A stretch of 36,653 nt of DNA from Thiogranum sp. (GTDB lineage Bacteria; Pseudomonadota; Gammaproteobacteria; DSM-19610). The DNA lies in contig JASBSS010000034.1 in the NCBI GenBank assembly GCA_030148805.1, positions 1-36,653 of the forward strand, read 5' to 3'. Made by a program: the position numbers and the translations under genes. How positions within the stretch are numbered: the stretch's first letter is position 1; every line of letters starts with the position of its first letter. Shown one piece after another: positions 23,253-30,869 of this stretch. The notes beneath the pieces were generated by a model. That model worked only from the letters and a program-made list of their open reading frames with translations, ran no database searches and was not told the DNA's origin.

Positions 23253-25268
23253 TCAGAGCAGCGGCACGATCAGCAGCGCCACGATATTGATGATTTTGAT
23301 CAACGGATTGATGGCCGGCCCCGCGGTGTCCTTGTAGGGGTCGCCGACGGTGTCGCCGGTGACCGCCGCCTTGTGCGCGTCGGAGCCCTTGCCGCCGTGG
23401 TTGCCGTCCTCGATGTATTTCTTCGCGTTGTCCCAGGCGCCGCCGCCGGTGGTCATGGAGATAGCCACGAACAGGCCGGTGACGATGGTGCCGAGCAGCA
23501 TGCCGCCGAGGGCCTGCGCACCCAGAAACAGGCCGACGATCACCGGCAGCAGGACCGGTAGCAGGGAGGGAATGACCATCTCCTTGATCGCCGAGCGGGT
23601 GAGCATGTCCACGGCGCGCGAGTAGTCGGGCTTCTGGCTGCGATCCATGATCCCCGGGAGTTCCCTGAACTGGCGGCGCACTTCATTGACGATGCCGCCG
23701 GCGGCGCGCCCGACCGCCTCCATGGCCATGGCGCCGAACAGGTAGGGGACCAACCCGCCGATGAACAGCCCGATGATCACCATGTGATCCGACAGATCGA
23801 AGCTCAGGTGCAGGCCGCGGGCTTCCAGGCCATGGGTGTAGTCGGCGAACAACACCAGCGCGGCCAGCCCAGCCGAACCGATGGCGTAGCCCTTGGTGAC
23901 CGCCTTGGTGGTGTTGCCCACGGCGTCCAGCGGATCGGTGATGTTGCGGATCTTTTCGTCGAGTTCGGCCATTTCGGCGATACCGCCGGCGTTGTCGGTG
24001 ATCGGTCCGTAGGCGTCCAGGGCCACGATAATGCCGGTCATCGACAGCATCGACGTGGCGGCCACGGCAATGCCGTAGAGGCCGGCGAATTCGTAGGCGC
24101 CCCAGATGGAGGCGCATACGGCGAGCACCGGCGCGGCGGTGGCTTTCATGGAAACCCCCAGACCGGCGATGACGTTGGTGCCGTCCCCGGTGGTCGAGGC
24201 CGCGGCGATATGCCGCACCGGCGAGTATTCGGTGGCGGTGTAGTATTCGGTGATCACCACCATCGCCGCGGTCAACGCCAGCCCGATCAGCGCGCAGTAG
24301 TACAGATCGAGCGTCGAGTAGACGCCGTTGTCGCCCATGACCGCGTCGGTGACGAAATAGAAGGCGATGGCGGCCAGAATGCCGGCGACGATCAGGCCGC
24401 GATACAGGGCGTTCATGATCTTGCCGCCGTCGCGCGCCTTGACGAAATACGTGCCGATGATGGAGGCGATGATCGACACGCCGCCCAGCACCAGGGGGTA
24501 GACCGCCGCCTGGGCGGCCACGTCCTTGAGCATCAGGCTGCCGAGTAACATGGTGGCGACGACGGTAACGGCGTAGGTTTCGAACAGGTCGGCGGCCATG
24601 CCGGCGCAGTCGCCGACATTGTCGCCGACGTTGTCGGCGATCACCGCGGGGTTGCGCGGATCGTCTTCCGGTATACCGGCTTCGACCTTGCCGACGATGT
24701 CCGCGCCGACGTCCGCGCCCTTGGTGAAGATGCCGCCGCCGAGGCGGGCGAAAATGGAAATCAGCGAGCCGCCGAACGCCAGGCCGACCAGCGGATGCAG
24801 CGGATCCTGCACGCCCATGAGCACTAGAATGGCGTAGAGGCCGGCCACGCCCAGCAGGCCCAGCCCGACGACCAGCATCCCGGTGATGGCCCCACCGCGG
24901 AAGGCGATCTGCATCGCGGCGTCGAGGCCGCTGTTGGCCGCCTCGGCCGTGCGCACATTCGAGCGCACGGAAATGTTCATGCCGATATAGCCGGCCAGGC
25001 CCGAGAACACCGCGCCGACGGCGAAACCGATGGCGGTGGTCCAGCCGATGCCGGAGAAGCCGATGATGACAAACAGTACCAGTCCGGCCAGGCCGATGGT
25101 GGTGTACTGGCGGTTCAGATACGCCTTGGCGCCTTCCTGGATGGCGCCGGCGATCTCCTGCATGCGCGGATTGCCGCTGGGTTTGGCCAGTATCCAGCGC
25201 ACCGAGAACACCCCGTAGAGCACGGCGATCACGGCGCAGACCAGCGCGAAAATCAGTTCTGTTGACAT
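23253..25268 (-). CDS. hppA: K+-independent membrane-bound proton-pumping pyrophosphatase
   Basis: Integral inner-membrane pump that couples PPi hydrolysis to H+ export (or runs backward to make PPi). 671 residues with about 16 membrane helices. Substrate motifs are [16 protein letters not shown] (about 181-196), [20 protein letters not shown] (201-220) and the DNAGGIAEM block (425-433). Lys455 in GNTTK marks the K+-independent subfamily; K+-requiring pumps have Ala there. A strong ribosome-binding site GGAGG lies 7 bases from ATG 25268, within a potential hairpin. Co-location with pfp resembles Methylococcus capsulatus, where the two are co-transcribed. Confidence 0.98.
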
Positions 25269-25623: not shown

Positions 25624-26901
25624 TCACTGGATTTCGAAATCCCCGAGTTTGCGCTTCACCGGGGCGTTTTTCAGAATGACGTATTTCGGCATGCCGTCCT
25701 TGCCGTAGGGCGGATAATCCTCGCCCTTGATCAGCGGGGTGAGATACTCGCGGCATTTCGGCGTAATGCCGAAGCCGTCCTTGGTGATGAAGTTCTTCGG
25801 CATCATTTTCTCGACGTTGGCCACTTTCGCCAGGGGGGCCTCGCCGATGGTCCATTTGTAGGGTTTGCTCGACTTGCGCACCACCGTGGGCATGACCGAA
25901 TTCTTGCCGCTCAACGCCAGTTTCACCGCCGCCTTGCCCAGTTCGTAGGCCTGGTCGACATCGGATTTCGAGGCGATGTGGCGCGCGGCGCGCTGCAGAT
26001 AATCGGCCACCGCCCAGTGGAATTTGTAACCCAGAGCATCCTTGATCATGTTGGCCACCACCGGCGCGGCGCCGCCGAGCTGGGCGTGGCCGAAGGCATC
26101 GCGGGTGCCCTGCTCGGCGAGGAACTTGCCGTCGGGCCAGTGACAGCCTTCGGAGACCACGATCGAGCAATAGCCGTATTTCTTCACCTTCTTTTCCACA
26201 GTGGCGAGAAACGCTTTTTGATCGAACTCGACTTCCGGGAACAGGATGACGATCGGCAGATCGCAGTCCTCGTCGGCGGCCAGCCCGCCAGCGGCGGCGA
26301 TCCAACCCGCGTGGCGTCCCATGACCTCGAGGACGAAAATCTTGGTGGACGTCTTGGCCATGCTGGCGACGTCGAAACTGGCTTCGCGGGTGCTGACGGC
26401 GATGTACTTGGCCACCGAGCCGAAGCCGGGGCAGTTGTCGGTAATGGGCAGGTCGTTGTCGACGGTCTTGGGGACGTGGATGGCCTGGATCGGGTAGCCC
26501 ATTTTCTCCGCCAGCTCCGAGACCTTGAGGCAGGTATCGGCCGAATCGCCGCCGCCGTTGTAGAAGAAATAACCGATATTGTGCGCTTCGAACACCTCGA
26601 TCAGGCGTTCGTACTCACGGCGGTTGGCTTCCAGGCTTTTCAGTTTGTAACGACAGGAACCGAAAGCGCCGCTCGGGGTGTGGCGCAGGGCGGCGATGGC
26701 GCGCGCCGATTCCTTGCTGGTGTCGATCAGATCCTCGGTCAGCGCGCCGATGATGCCGTTGCGCCCGGCCAGGACTTTGCCGATTTTATGTTTGTTGGCG
26801 CGCGCGGTTTCGATCACGCCGCAGGCGCTGGCGTTGATGACCGCGGTGACGCCGCCCGATTGGGCGTAAAACGCATTCTTTTTTCCTGTGGATTTCGCCA
26901 T
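25624..26901 (-). CDS. pfp: Pyrophosphate-dependent 6-phosphofructokinase
   Basis: Cytoplasmic enzyme that reversibly phosphorylates fructose 6-phosphate with PPi; in methylotrophs and autotrophs it also acts on sedoheptulose 7-phosphate and ribulose 5-phosphate. 425 residues. The phosphate-donor loop is GGGDS (116-120), with Asp at the position that excludes ATP in PPi-type enzymes. The catalytic block is PKTVDND (144-150, with Lys145 and base Asp148), and MGRHAGW (194-200) binds fructose 6-phosphate. Ribosome-binding site GGAG is 6 bases from ATG 26901. It lies between two small unknown genes and just upstream of hppA. Confidence 0.96.
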   Translation of the reverse strand: MAKSTGKKNAFYAQSGGVTAVINASACGVIETARANKHKIGKVLAGRNGIIGALTEDLIDTSKESARAIAALRHTPSGAFGSCRYKLKSLEANRREYERLIEVFEAHNIGYFFYNGGGDSADTCLKVSELAEKMGYPIQAIHVPKTVDNDLPITDNCPGFGSVAKYIAVSTREASFDVASMAKTSTKIFVLEVMGRHAGWIAAAGGLAADEDCDLPIVILFPEVEFDQKAFLATVEKKVKKYGYCSIVVSEGCHWPDGKFLAEQGTRDAFGHAQLGGAAPVVANMIKDALGYKFHWAVADYLQRAARHIASKSDVDQAYELGKAAVKLALSGKNSVMPTVVRKSSKPYKWTIGEAPLAKVANVEKMMPKNFITKDGFGITPKCREYLTPLIKGEDYPPYGKDGMPKYVILKNAPVKRKLGDFEIQ

Positions 26902-26947: not shown

Positions 26948-27298
26948 CTAGTCCAGTTCGTCGGCGTGTTCCCGCGCATGGTGGTCGGCCTGGACCTGCA
27001 GCAGGGTGACGACGCACTCGGTAAGATCGTCGTATTGATCGATGCCGGTGCCGTACATCTGGTGGATGCGATAGAAAAATTGACAGCGATAACGGCGATC
27101 TCCCGTCTTCACCACCACGAAGTGGCAGTCTCCGGCTTCCCAATAAGCCGTCGGGCAGGGGGTCAGTTCGGTTCGACCCGGATCCAGACGCATTTCGGTC
27201 TCGGCCAGCTGAATGTCCGGGACAGTGCCGTAACGTTCCTGCAAGGTGGTCTGGATGACCCAAAGTTCGCTGTCTGAAAAGTCCGGGATTCCGCTCAT
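26948..27298 (-). CDS. Hypothetical protein upstream of pfp
   Basis: A 116-residue protein of unknown family. It begins MSGIPDFSDSELWVIQTTL, has a central alternating segment (HFVVVKTGDRRYRCQFFYRI) suggesting beta-strands, and ends in an acidic/His-rich tail with HHAREHADELD. It contains Cys48, Cys58, Cys72 and Cys94 but no obvious metal motif. It is the first gene of the minus-strand unit that includes pfp (46 bases apart) and is divergent from adk. Function unknown. Confidence 0.65.
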   Translation of the reverse strand: MSGIPDFSDSELWVIQTTLQERYGTVPDIQLAETEMRLDPGRTELTPCPTAYWEAGDCHFVVVKTGDRRYRCQFFYRIHQMYGTGIDQYDDLTECVVTLLQVQADHHAREHADELD

Positions 27299-27547: not shown

Positions 27548-29026
27548 ATGAGGCTTGTACTCTCAGGGCCACCGGGCAGCGGCAAGGGCACGCAGGGACA
27601 CCGGCTGGCGAAGCATTACAAGGTGCCCGAGATCTCCACCGGCGACCTGCTACGCGAAGCCGTGGCGGCGGGGACGCCCCTCGGTCGGGCGGCCAAGGCG
27701 GTGATGGACGCAGGCCAGTTGGTGTCCGACGACATCGTGTTGGGGGTGATTCGCCAGCGTCTGGCCAAGTCCGATGTGCGCAAGGGCTTCATTCTGGACG
27801 GATTTCCGCGCAATCTCGCCCAGGCCGAGCAGCTCGACGAGATGCTCGACCAGCTGGGACAGCCGATCGACCTGGTGCTGGTCATCGACGTGGACGTCGA
27901 TGTCATCCTGCAGCGCTTGCTGGGGCGCCGTACCTGTGTTTCCTGCGGCGCCAGCTACAACGTATTTTTCGCGCCGCCGCGGATGGACGACAGCTGCGAC
28001 GAGTGTGGCGGGCGCTTGCGCCGCCGCGCCGACGACAATGAGGAGACCATCGGCAACCGTCTGCGCATCTACGAAGCGCAGACCGCGCCGATGCTGGAGC
28101 GCTATCGGGAGCAGGGCCGGTTACGCGTGGTGCAGGGGCTAGGCGAAATCGACGACGTTTTCCGGGCGGTCAGCAAGGCCGTCGAGGAGGCGCGGCCGGG
28201 TTTCGGCGATGCCCGCGCCAATGCCATTCGCCGCGCGGTGGCGCGCACCCGCGTCGCCCAGCAGGAAAGCACAGAGGCGCCGGTGCGCAAGCAAGCCGCC
28301 GGGCGCAGTGCCGACAAGGCATCCTCCGCCGCAGGGGCTGGCAAGCAACCCAACGGAACCGCCGCACGCAAGTCGGCGGCTTCCAGGGACGCGGATGCAG
28401 GCAAATTGTCCGCCAAGAGCGCCAAGACGAAAACCGCCGCGCGCAAGTCCGGGGTCGGGAAACAGGCGGCGGAAAAGGCGCCGTCGAGCGGGGCCAACGA
28501 AAAAGGGGGTTCAAAAAATAAAGCGGCATCCAAGAAGAAAGTGACCGCAGGCCAGCAGCCGGGTGCCACGAAGAAGGTGGCAAGTGGTAAGCCATCCACG
28601 TCGAACGCGAGTGCCGCGAAGAAGGCCGTCGCCAAGAAGAAGGCCGTCGCGAAGAAAAGGGTGGCAGTGAAGAAGAAAGCTGTTACCCAGAAGAAGATTG
28701 TTGCGAAGAAGAAGGATATCACCCAGAAGAAGGCCGCTACGAAGAAGAAGGCCGCTACGAAGAAGAAGGTGGTAGCGAAGAAAAAGGCATCCAAGAAAGG
28801 TGGCGTGGCCGCCGGCAAGGCGCCCCGTCGCGCCAAGGCGGCGACCGGCGCCAGGAAAGTGGCGAAAAAAGCTGGGGTGAAGAACGCCGCGGCCGGAAAG
28901 GCGGCGACAAAGCGCGCGGCGGTGAAAAAGAAGACGACCGGCAAGGCGGCTGGCAAGCCGGTCGGCCGCAAGCGGGCGCCGGCGAAAAACAAAGTCGCAG
29001 CGAAAAAATCGCCCCGCAGGCGTTGA
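27548..29026 (+). CDS. adk: Adenylate kinase fused to a long Lys/Ala-rich histone H1-like tail
   Basis: Residues 1-215 form a normal adenylate kinase (2 ADP = ATP + AMP): P-loop GPPGSGKGT (7-15), STGDLLR (30-36), DGFPRN (84-89), and a zinc-type LID with Cys130, Cys133, Cys150 and Cys153. Typical bacterial Adk ends near residue 215-220. Here the same frame continues for about 270 more residues, strongly basic and built of Lys, Ala, Thr, Val, Ser and Gly with many AAKK and AKKK units, like bacterial histone H1-like and AlgP proteins. No stop, frameshift or internal start separates the parts. Such a tail could bind DNA, RNA or polyphosphate. Divergent from the pfp unit. Confidence 0.93.
   Translation: MRLVLSGPPGSGKGTQGHRLAKHYKVPEISTGDLLREAVAAGTPLGRAAKAVMDAGQLVSDDIVLGVIRQRLAKSDVRKGFILDGFPRNLAQAEQLDEMLDQLGQPIDLVLVIDVDVDVILQRLLGRRTCVSCGASYNVFFAPPRMDDSCDECGGRLRRRADDNEETIGNRLRIYEAQTAPMLERYREQGRLRVVQGLGEIDDVFRAVSKAVEEARPGFGDARANAIRRAVARTRVAQQESTEAPVRKQAAGRSADKASSAAGAGKQPNGTAARKSAASRDADAGKLSAKSAKTKTAARKSGVGKQAAEKAPSSGANEKGGSKNKAASKKKVTAGQQPGATKKVASGKPSTSNASAAKKAVAKKKAVAKKRVAVKKKAVTQKKIVAKKKDITQKKAATKKKAATKKKVVAKKKASKKGGVAAGKAPRRAKAATGARKVAKKAGVKNAAAGKAATKRAAVKKKTTGKAAGKPVGRKRAPAKNKVAAKKSPRRR
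28613..28796 (+). repeat. Short tandem repeats coding the Lys/Ala tail of Adk
   Basis: Degenerate 18-base units encode KKK(A/V)(A/V)x-type hexapeptides. The clearest exact pair is 28741-28758 (GAAGAAGAAGGCCGCTAC) with a near copy ending at 28740 and partial copies after 28759. Copy number here is likely to vary between strains by slippage without losing frame, since units are multiples of three. Confidence 0.75.
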
Positions 29027-29040
29027 GGTCGCGCGTTCCC

Positions 29041-30234
29041 CTAGAGATTCTGCGCCAGCCCGGGGATCTTCTCGGCGATGGCCAGCGGGAGCGTCACCCC
29101 GGGGTGATGGCCGCTGTGGCCGGCCTGCCAGCGACAGCCGGTATTGCCCAGGATGATTTCATACTGCGACAGCTGGCCTTGCTCCAGCAGGACCATCTCG
29201 CTGGCGAGGTGCCACTCCCAGGCGCGGACCCGTGGTTCGCCGAAATACCGCGCGACGGTTTCGCGCTGGCGGCGCAGGCGCCTGGCATAGCTGTGCAGAT
29301 CCTGCCAGCGGTCGGCCGACAGGTCCTGGAGTTGCAAGGCGCGCAGCGGACTGTTTTCGAGCGCCCTATGCAGCCTGGCGAGCGTAGGCAGCGCAGCGGC
29401 ACAACGGGGTGGCAGCGCGACGTCCACCGGCAGGCGCCGCGCCCGGAATTGCAACCAGGCCAGTCCGTTAGCGTGCAGCAGCGCCGTGATTTTCGGGAGC
29501 AACCGGTGGGCCGGGTTGGCCGGGTCGACGATGTCGTTGGCGACGATCCGATCGAAACGGTCGGGGCGGCGGTAGCCTGTTCGCAGATGAAACGTGACAA
29601 TGGCGGAAAGCCCGCGGCGTTGGGCTTCCTGGCGCGCATGGCGCAGTTGTCGCTCGCCGGCGACCAGGCCGGTTACCCGGACCCCGGTGTGCTGCGCCAA
29701 AAACAGCGCCAGTGCGCCCCAGCCGGCGCTCAGATCGAGCAGCTGCTGTTCGGGCGTCAGCCGCAGTTGCGCGCACAGGTCGCGGCAGCGAAGCCGTTGC
29801 GCCTGTTCCTGGCCGATACCCGGTTCGCGGTAGTGCGCGCACCCCTGCAGCAGTTCCTCGCCCAGACAGGCGCGCGCCAGCCACAGGTCGCTGTCGTGCC
29901 AATCCGGGGAAGCGCGATCCCACCGCGCCTGAAGCTGGCGGGCGGCCTGGTCCCCCAGGGGCAGCCGGGAAGACCAGGGGCGCCGGGGACAGGCGCGCGC
30001 GAACGCCAGTATCAGCGCGGGAAGGTGGCGGGTATCCAGCTCCCAGTCACCACGCAGGTAGCTGCGTTCGAGGCGCGGAAACGGGCGGCGCAGGATCCGC
30101 CGCAACAGGCGTGGGTGGCGCAGACGCCAATCGACCACCGGATCGCGGTGTCCGATGGGGGTGATCCGCCCGTCGGGAAAGCGGGCGTTCAGACTGATGC
30201 CACGCAGATTATCCGCCAAGGTACATAAGTCCAT
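29041..30234 (-). CDS. Diverged cyclopropane-fatty-acid-synthase-like SAM methyltransferase
   Basis: A 397-residue protein with the layout of CFA synthases: a basic N-terminal lipid-binding part (1-110) then a Rossmann methyltransferase. The family GCAHY segment keeps Cys132, but the SAM motif is LDLSAGWGALA (166-176) rather than LDIGCGWG, the EHVG block that carries a catalytic Glu is replaced by NDIVDPANP, and the later LLH segment reads AWLQF, losing the His. Tyr in HSYARRL remains. The sequence is intact, so this looks like a functional relative with changed chemistry or a pseudo-enzyme. AAGGTG precedes ATG 30234. Convergent with adk. Confidence 0.72.
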   Translation of the reverse strand: MDLCTLADNLRGISLNARFPDGRITPIGHRDPVVDWRLRHPRLLRRILRRPFPRLERSYLRGDWELDTRHLPALILAFARACPRRPWSSRLPLGDQAARQLQARWDRASPDWHDSDLWLARACLGEELLQGCAHYREPGIGQEQAQRLRCRDLCAQLRLTPEQQLLDLSAGWGALALFLAQHTGVRVTGLVAGERQLRHARQEAQRRGLSAIVTFHLRTGYRRPDRFDRIVANDIVDPANPAHRLLPKITALLHANGLAWLQFRARRLPVDVALPPRCAAALPTLARLHRALENSPLRALQLQDLSADRWQDLHSYARRLRRQRETVARYFGEPRVRAWEWHLASEMVLLEQGQLSQYEIILGNTGCRWQAGHSGHHPGVTLPLAIAEKIPGLAQNL

Positions 30235-30323: not shown

Positions 30324-30869
30324 ATGAATGCACCCAGCCTGGTCAGTTGGCCCTACTCCTGGTGGGAGCAACTGTTGCTCAAGCGCGCCCCCCAGCAGGA
30401 CGCCTACTCGCCGGCGGCGCTGGCCGCCGCGCTGTTGATGTATCTGCTGGTCGATCTGGCGCAGGTGAGCTCCGGTTCGCCCGCCAAGGGTGCCTGGGCG
30501 GTGGCCTTGACCGATACCGCGGTGACGGTGATATTCGCCGCAGCCGTCCTGAGCCTGGCGGCGAAAACGCAGCGCCTGGTGCAGACGCTGACGGCGCTGG
30601 CCGGCACCGGCGCGCTGCTCGGGTTGTTGGGGTTGCCGCTGATCTGGCAGGTGGCGCGCACCCAGGAAGCTGGCGCGGCGCCCACCCTGCTGGCGGTGGG
30701 TTGGGTGCTGCTGGTGGCCTGGAGTGTCGTCGTGCAGGCGCACATTTTCCGCCATGCCCTGTCCACCCGGTTCGGATACGGACTCCTGTTGGCGGTCCTG
30801 CACAGCCTGATCGCCGTCAGCGTGCTGAGCCGGCTTTTCCCCGGGGCCCTGGGTCAAGCGGCCGAATGA
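30324..30869 (+). CDS. Small multi-pass membrane protein, unknown function
   Basis: A 181-residue hydrophobic protein with about four membrane helices: roughly 28-48, 60-80, 86-108, 118-140, and a possible fifth at 150-170. No catalytic motif is seen. Its overall look resembles Yip1-type membrane proteins, but that is not secure. It is immediately upstream of mpl (20 bases) on the same strand, so the two are probably co-transcribed. ATG 30324 has only a weak ribosome-binding site. Confidence 0.72.
   Translation: MNAPSLVSWPYSWWEQLLLKRAPQQDAYSPAALAAALLMYLLVDLAQVSSGSPAKGAWAVALTDTAVTVIFAAAVLSLAAKTQRLVQTLTALAGTGALLGLLGLPLIWQVARTQEAGAAPTLLAVGWVLLVAWSVVVQAHIFRHALSTRFGYGLLLAVLHSLIAVSVLSRLFPGALGQAAE

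Follow-up and report, generated by a model that had tools for sequence, protein, structure and literature searches.

We report that an adenylate kinase (Adk) gene of a Thiogranum sp. encodes an enzyme core of ordinary type that runs on, in the same frame, into a histone H1-like, Lys/Ala-rich tail longer than the core, that this tail is real and inherited in many gammaproteobacteria, and that a comparable tail, judging from the phylogeny, was gained independently in another family of the phylum. The explanation that we favour, at about even chances, is that the disordered polycation tail tethers a catalytically normal Adk to nucleic acid, i.e. nucleoid DNA and/or RNA and ribosomes, as suggested by the tail composition and by the AlgP and PhaF precedents. 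The stretch of DNA analysed (36,653 nucleotides, below referred to as the window) constitutes contig C20 of a draft genome that spans 3.78 Mb and comprises 38 contigs.

The adk gene (27548-29026, + strand) translates as a single ATG-started frame of 492 amino acids without an internal stop. Residues 1-216 (27548..28195, +) form the adenylate kinase core, as identified by matches to Pfam, NCBIfam and PDB sequences, an AF2 model and conserved residues. Specifically, the Pfam ADK domain (PF00406) matched residues 5-190 (E 2.4e-53, 180.7 bits, cut-off 26.8), and ADK_lid (PF05191) matched residues 127-162 (E 2.6e-13, 50.1 bits, cut-off 26.6), which is the lid with four cysteines (27926..28033, +). 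TIGR01351 (243.6 bits, cut-off 168) and NCBIfam NF001380 also scored over cut-off and both matches stop at residues 212-214. The core has the P-loop GPPGSGKGT, the DGFPRN motif and the lid cysteines C130, C133, C150 and C153, the first three being invariant and C153 nearly invariant among 16 aligned sequences. In the same alignment G7, P9, G10, G12-T15, R36, D84, G85, P87, R88, R123, R160 and R171 are invariant, and we take these (P-loop, DGFPR motif and arginines) to have their usual catalytic roles. The core carries a net charge of -1 and was modelled with pLDDT blocks of 84-93 (AF2, 16-row alignment), and the 60 sequences among the PDB matches listed are all Adks of at most 245 residues. 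With domains over curated cut-offs and intact catalytic motifs, the window enzyme is an ordinary Adk whose activity is predicted from its sequence.

The tail comprises residues 217-492 plus the stop codon (28196..29026, +) and was delimited by translation, composition and AF2. Its 276 residues include 71 Ala, 66 Lys and 20 Arg, giving a net charge of +77, and the lysine codons (AAR) are retained despite the 65% GC of the window. A preliminary description of this DNA had placed a core of about 215 and an H1-like tail of roughly 270 residues in one frame; the sizes were accurate (we measured approximately 216 and 276), and the H1-like tail on an intact Adk was borne out both here and by its recurrence in relatives. 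The start of the tail (residues 222-241; 28211..28270, +) is a predicted helix with an AIRRAVAR-type motif (AF2 pLDDT blocks 56-58), a pattern present in 14 of 100 tails, i.e. those of the window protein, of 12 close relatives and of L142. Past residue 241 secondary structure is absent from the model and pLDDT is mostly <50 for residues 243-477 (AF2, 16-row alignment). Tandem Repeats Finder detected a degenerate array of 18-bp units encoding hexapeptides of the AVAKKK kind (28618..28788, +; 9.5 copies, 71% matches), the Lys/Arg autocorrelation of the window tail peaks at 6, and a spacing peak at 5 or 6 residues was seen in 76 of the 100 tails, from which we infer that the tail grows by slippage. 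The median aromatic content of the 100 tails is 0. No KPAA repeats were found in residues 217-492, the units instead being 5-6-residue AKKK-type. Being long, of low complexity, Lys/Ala-rich, predicted disordered and highly positive, the tail is H1-like in the sense used for AlgP and PhaF.

Our search of the own family covered 20 genomes, and the order-level search gave those 20 again. Sixteen, the window's own included, have a full-length core of ≥67% identity with open frames of 291-522, and all 16 carry the extension when translated, three of them reaching a contig end. Among the others, G013 gave a partial match (open frame 297), and the matches in G001, G010 and G014 were only 44-49%. The preliminary description had proposed this comparison of orthologs and had set a normal Adk stop in close relatives against its own reading; the tail was present in all 16 close orthologs, with three ending at the contig edge, and no such stop was seen. 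By this gene, the nearest named relatives are metagenome-assembled genomes (MAGs) labelled Thiogranum sp., with core identities of 94-95%. On contigs of named genomes the extension was present in 29 of the 30 loci L033-L062, L060 being the one without, and absent from the 50 more distant loci L063-L112.

From a class survey of 370 genomes we took the 80 orthologs that scored best beyond the own genus, which are consecutive top-scoring and thus non-random entries that include own-family G002. Defining as tailed those with ≥60 residues past position 216, 66 of these 80 are tailed and 14 stop at 214-226. The tailed orthologs are spread over 34 families (hand count of labels), and together with G000, G004, G012 and G016 they bring the tailed genomes to at least 70 of the 370. 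The 63 tails free of N runs are 86-314 residues long (median 183), with K+R and D+E fractions of 0.40 and 0.03 and a median net charge of +65 (range 13-113); in L177, L185 and L201, N runs lie within the tail-coding repeat, and tail lengths in draft genomes are therefore unsure. That repetitive tails trouble assemblies (five of the 80 orthologous genes reach a contig end and three of the 66 tails have N runs) gives some room for an assembly or annotation artefact, i.e. a missed stop or a two-gene fusion, but the identical architecture in other assemblies, including the single-contig G004, G374, G126 and G123, makes this extremely unlikely, and the tailed relatives rule out a sequencing error or a gene fusion that is confined to one strain.

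A tree of 178 cores requires at least six changes of the label "tail" compared to 58 when labels are shuffled, and 99 of 100 tailed entries together with 14 tailless ones lie on one side of a branch with a weak support of 61; this is a quick tree in which 69 of 175 inner branches are open, with several long branches and weak backbone support. The Adk of the MAG ZC4RG39 (L061) is 439 aa long, ≈220 aa of which form a basic tail; on a long branch, it falls among tailless Adks in the trees, and its tail is possibly a further gain. A plasmid search with 219 records gave matches all of <60% identity.

The preliminary description knew of no such tail on Adk. The combination is a widespread subfamily trait and not peculiar to one genome, and a curated model of another tailed Adk exists: NCBIfam NF010381 (PRK13808), an adenylate kinase model of 335 positions. 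This model was passed by 9 of 299 genomes of the phylum, all from one family (f198) that we take to belong to Alphaproteobacteria and to comprise Bradyrhizobium-type organisms. The nine proteins resemble the window protein in that the Adk is followed by an AKKA-rich basic tail, which ends in AKKVTK(K/R)RAKR in eight of the nine, and differ from it in total length (284-309 aa), gene neighbours and position in the tree. With a support of 99 they group in one clade that is surrounded by 21 tailless relatives (L227-L247) and distant from the window's group, and the starred branches of a quick tree of 76 cores force at least two trait changes. This topology points to two tailed groups without common ancestry of the tail. 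The window protein scores 178.2 bits on NF010381 against a cut-off of 426, and this score and the tree rule out its membership. All nine f198 genes are flanked by a SecY-like frame on one side and by S13-like and S11-like frames on the other (names read from the L219 sequence). An S13-like neighbour also adjoins the gene in 18 of the 21 tailless relatives; this ribosomal-operon setting is therefore older than the tail and gives no evidence for an RNA ligand.

Does the tail matter to the cell? It varies in length from 86 to 314 aa, contains a degenerate 18-bp array, has near-perfect KKAPA repeats in L041 and is missing from 14 of 80 orthologs, all of which would fit a tail of little or no function, i.e. 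a slippage-grown C-terminal appendage tolerated since it is soluble. We regard this as improbable on several grounds. Using K≥20% and D/E≤8% over the last 80 residues as criterion, such a basic end is absent from all 1475 other ORFs (six frames, ≥150 aa) in 111 loci compared to its presence in 78 of the 111 Adk genes, and the tail was gained on Adk again in f198. Moreover, non-synonymous/synonymous ratios for 18 pairs of relatives (some sharing members) range between 0.09 and 0.35 for the tail, four of these values being uncorrected ratios because synonymous sites were saturated, and between 0.01 and 0.10 for the core. Alignment of low-complexity sequence can bias the tail ratios downward; they are also well below 1 in pairs of near-equal length (0.09 for L145/L151 and 0.22 for L012/L038). 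By these ratios, purifying selection acts on the tail, though less strongly than on the core, and the charge is kept across many families. A second such tail was not found in the own genome by a BLAST-type search, which low-complexity sequence can defeat.

Upstream of adk the window holds a gene for a 116-aa conserved protein (26948..27298, -), divergent from adk, followed by genes for a diphosphate-dependent phosphofructokinase (PPi-PFK; 25624..26901, -; NF010675 650 bits, cut-off 273; PF00365) and an H+-translocating membrane pyrophosphatase (23253..25268, -; PF03030, E 3.3e-271). The 116-aa protein has no Pfam or NCBIfam match; AF2 predicted a helix, five strands and a helix (pLDDT 82.6), and a PDB fold search gave no match at E≤0.001. 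It adjoins adk in L033-L043, L062 and many of L138-L217 and is well conserved in the alignment; in the nearest relatives it looks decayed (L033, 37.5% identity and shortened; L034, 65%) despite Adk core identities of 94-95%. With a PPi-PFK neighbour defined by >55% identity and a distance of 0.9-2.3 kb, and among loci with ≥2.3 kb upstream, the gene is a divergent neighbour of adk in 45 of the 61 tailed and one of the 14 tailless loci (Fisher 5.7e-6, ignoring relatedness); the numbers without the flank condition are 47 of 66 and one of 14. Fifteen tailless Adks outside the clade (among L070-L110) adjoin PPi-PFK as well, and we therefore reject the reading that the tail marks the PPi cluster. 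In a whole-genome search for PPi-PFK, tailed G038 gave no match, and G337, G263 and G169 were absent from the genomes with a match. The link to PPi metabolism drawn in the preliminary description is consequently real as gene order but is not restricted to tailed Adks.

This gene order could mean that the tail anchors Adk to an anionic membrane or to a protein partner, such as the H+-PPase, the PPi-PFK or the 116-aa neighbour, in an AMP/PPi-recycling assembly. Coiled-coil-like tails in one subclade would agree with such a partner: in L049-L053 and L055-L059 a shorter basic part precedes a charged, coiled-coil-like segment (D/E 0.07-0.14), and a PE(V/I)IRTQ motif is common to L049-L053 and L055-L058, with PEIIRTK in L059. 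A protein partner would suit these tails no less than nucleic acid, and tail function may have shifted in places. We nevertheless consider an anchor of this kind unlikely, given the 15 tailless Adks with the same neighbour, the 16 of 61 tailed loci without PPi-PFK, and the f198 genes, which have SecY-like and S13-like/S11-like neighbours instead. A variant tail in which a charged, coiled-coil-like segment at the C-terminus follows the basic part, or takes over some of it, was also noted in L046, L054, L211, L216 and L181.

On the other side of adk, a convergent gene (29041-30234, -) encodes a protein of 397 aa that matches PF02353 (cyclopropane synthetase) only over residues 122-237 and scores far below NCBIfam cut-offs. 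A 181-aa hydrophobic-looking protein without Pfam or NCBIfam match (30324-30869, +) precedes a Mur-ligase (mpl-like) gene and holds that place in relatives too (29-77% identity). A promoter scan found 0 compared to 0.6 expected.

The preliminary description also raised polyphosphate (polyP) as a ligand, and the tail might bind polyP granules such that Adk uses polyP as a phosphate store (AMP to ADP to ATP). E. coli reportedly uses polyP in an Adk-dependent manner, and the own genome has ppk1. According to PMC9239181, the H1-like AlgP associates with polyP granules and its KPAA tail is required for granule spacing. Among 45 genomes tested, PPK1 was present in 22 of 31 tailed genomes (one of the 22, G063, by a partial match below cut-off), which were hand-picked out of 70 and where drafts may hide genes, and in 13 of 14 tailless ones. 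Eight of the nine tailed genomes without PPK1 also lack PPK2, including the single-contig G089 (99% complete) and G133 (100%), and this speaks against polyP as a general ligand and weakens the proposed tie. PolyP is hardly the common partner, and we think a polyP tether doubtful as the main explanation; it could still apply in lineages that make polyP.

The tailed Adk is the single one found in 34 of the 66 tailed genomes (one protein query; hand count), and in 12 of 22 chosen genomes, two-contig G231 included, it is the sole PF00406 match, noting that the 22 were chosen partly for having one Adk match in the class survey. Where it is the only Adk found, the tailed protein is presumably the housekeeping enzyme. 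The own genome carries a second, tailless and divergent Adk (L024; G000:C33:53201-53785, -), which in the tree shares a long branch with copies from G015, G016, G004 and G010.

We favour nucleic acid as the ligand since it is present in every cell and is a reported ligand of such tails. In the proposed mechanism the tail would keep Adk attached, through non-specific electrostatic contacts, to nucleoid DNA and/or RNA and ribosomes. The tethered enzyme would interconvert ATP, ADP and AMP near the sites at which the synthesis of nucleic acids and proteins sets AMP and PPi free, and the adjoining PPi-PFK and H+-pyrophosphatase would handle that PPi. Here we infer the binding, the localisation and any effect on the adenylate balance; data on binding or localisation of a tailed Adk did not turn up, and among the open-licence PMC matches listed, none dealt with a lysine-rich tail of a bacterial adenylate kinase as judged from title and start of abstract. 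Counting against a tether, 14 orthologs of the class do without the tail, which is thus dispensable there, and it evolves fast, by slippage, as filler would. The tail could also bind any polyanion, membranes included. The nucleic-acid tether is a plausible mechanism that joins a known enzyme to a known tail type in a combination that we did not find described, NF010381 covering the parallel case.

The adenylate kinase of bacteria is usually regarded as a small housekeeping enzyme that diffuses freely. It is conceivable, though we put it somewhat below even chances, that across much of Gammaproteobacteria and, independently, in another proteobacterial family the Adk, often the sole one, is tethered to nucleic acid, with adenylate equilibration organised on the nucleoid or ribosomes and not free in the cytosol. 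If true, a conserved H1-like tail on an Adk that is often the only copy means that some bacteria localise their adenylate equilibrium, the spatial organisation of bacterial energy metabolism becomes testable with one gene and one truncation, and H1-like tailed proteins, with AlgP, PhaF and Hc2 as nucleoid or granule proteins, gain a core metabolic enzyme.

Compared to known systems, the window protein has the whole core, the P-loop, the lid and the catalytic motifs in common with the canonical four-cysteine-lid bacterial Adk (TIGR01351, NF001380, PF00406 plus PF05191), but the latter stops near residue 217 whereas the window protein runs on to 492. AlgP and PhaF, whose H1-like tails are believed to bind DNA, likewise have a long, predicted-disordered, Lys/Ala-rich C-terminal domain on another N-terminal part; in contrast to both, the N-terminal part of the window protein is an enzyme, and its DNA binding is putative. 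PMC9239181 describes fragments of the AlgP H1-like C-terminal domain and KPAA peptides that bind DNA, and gives the AlgP repeats as KPAA, unlike the AKKK-type units of the window tail. Chlamydial Hc2 (PMC2848022) shares lysine-rich repeat units in variable number but is a DNA-binding histone-like protein and not an enzyme. Finally, TcADKn, the nuclear adenylate kinase of Trypanosoma cruzi (PMC3567042), provides a case of an Adk in a DNA-holding compartment, although it is a eukaryotic nuclear isoform and is likened to the window protein by description.
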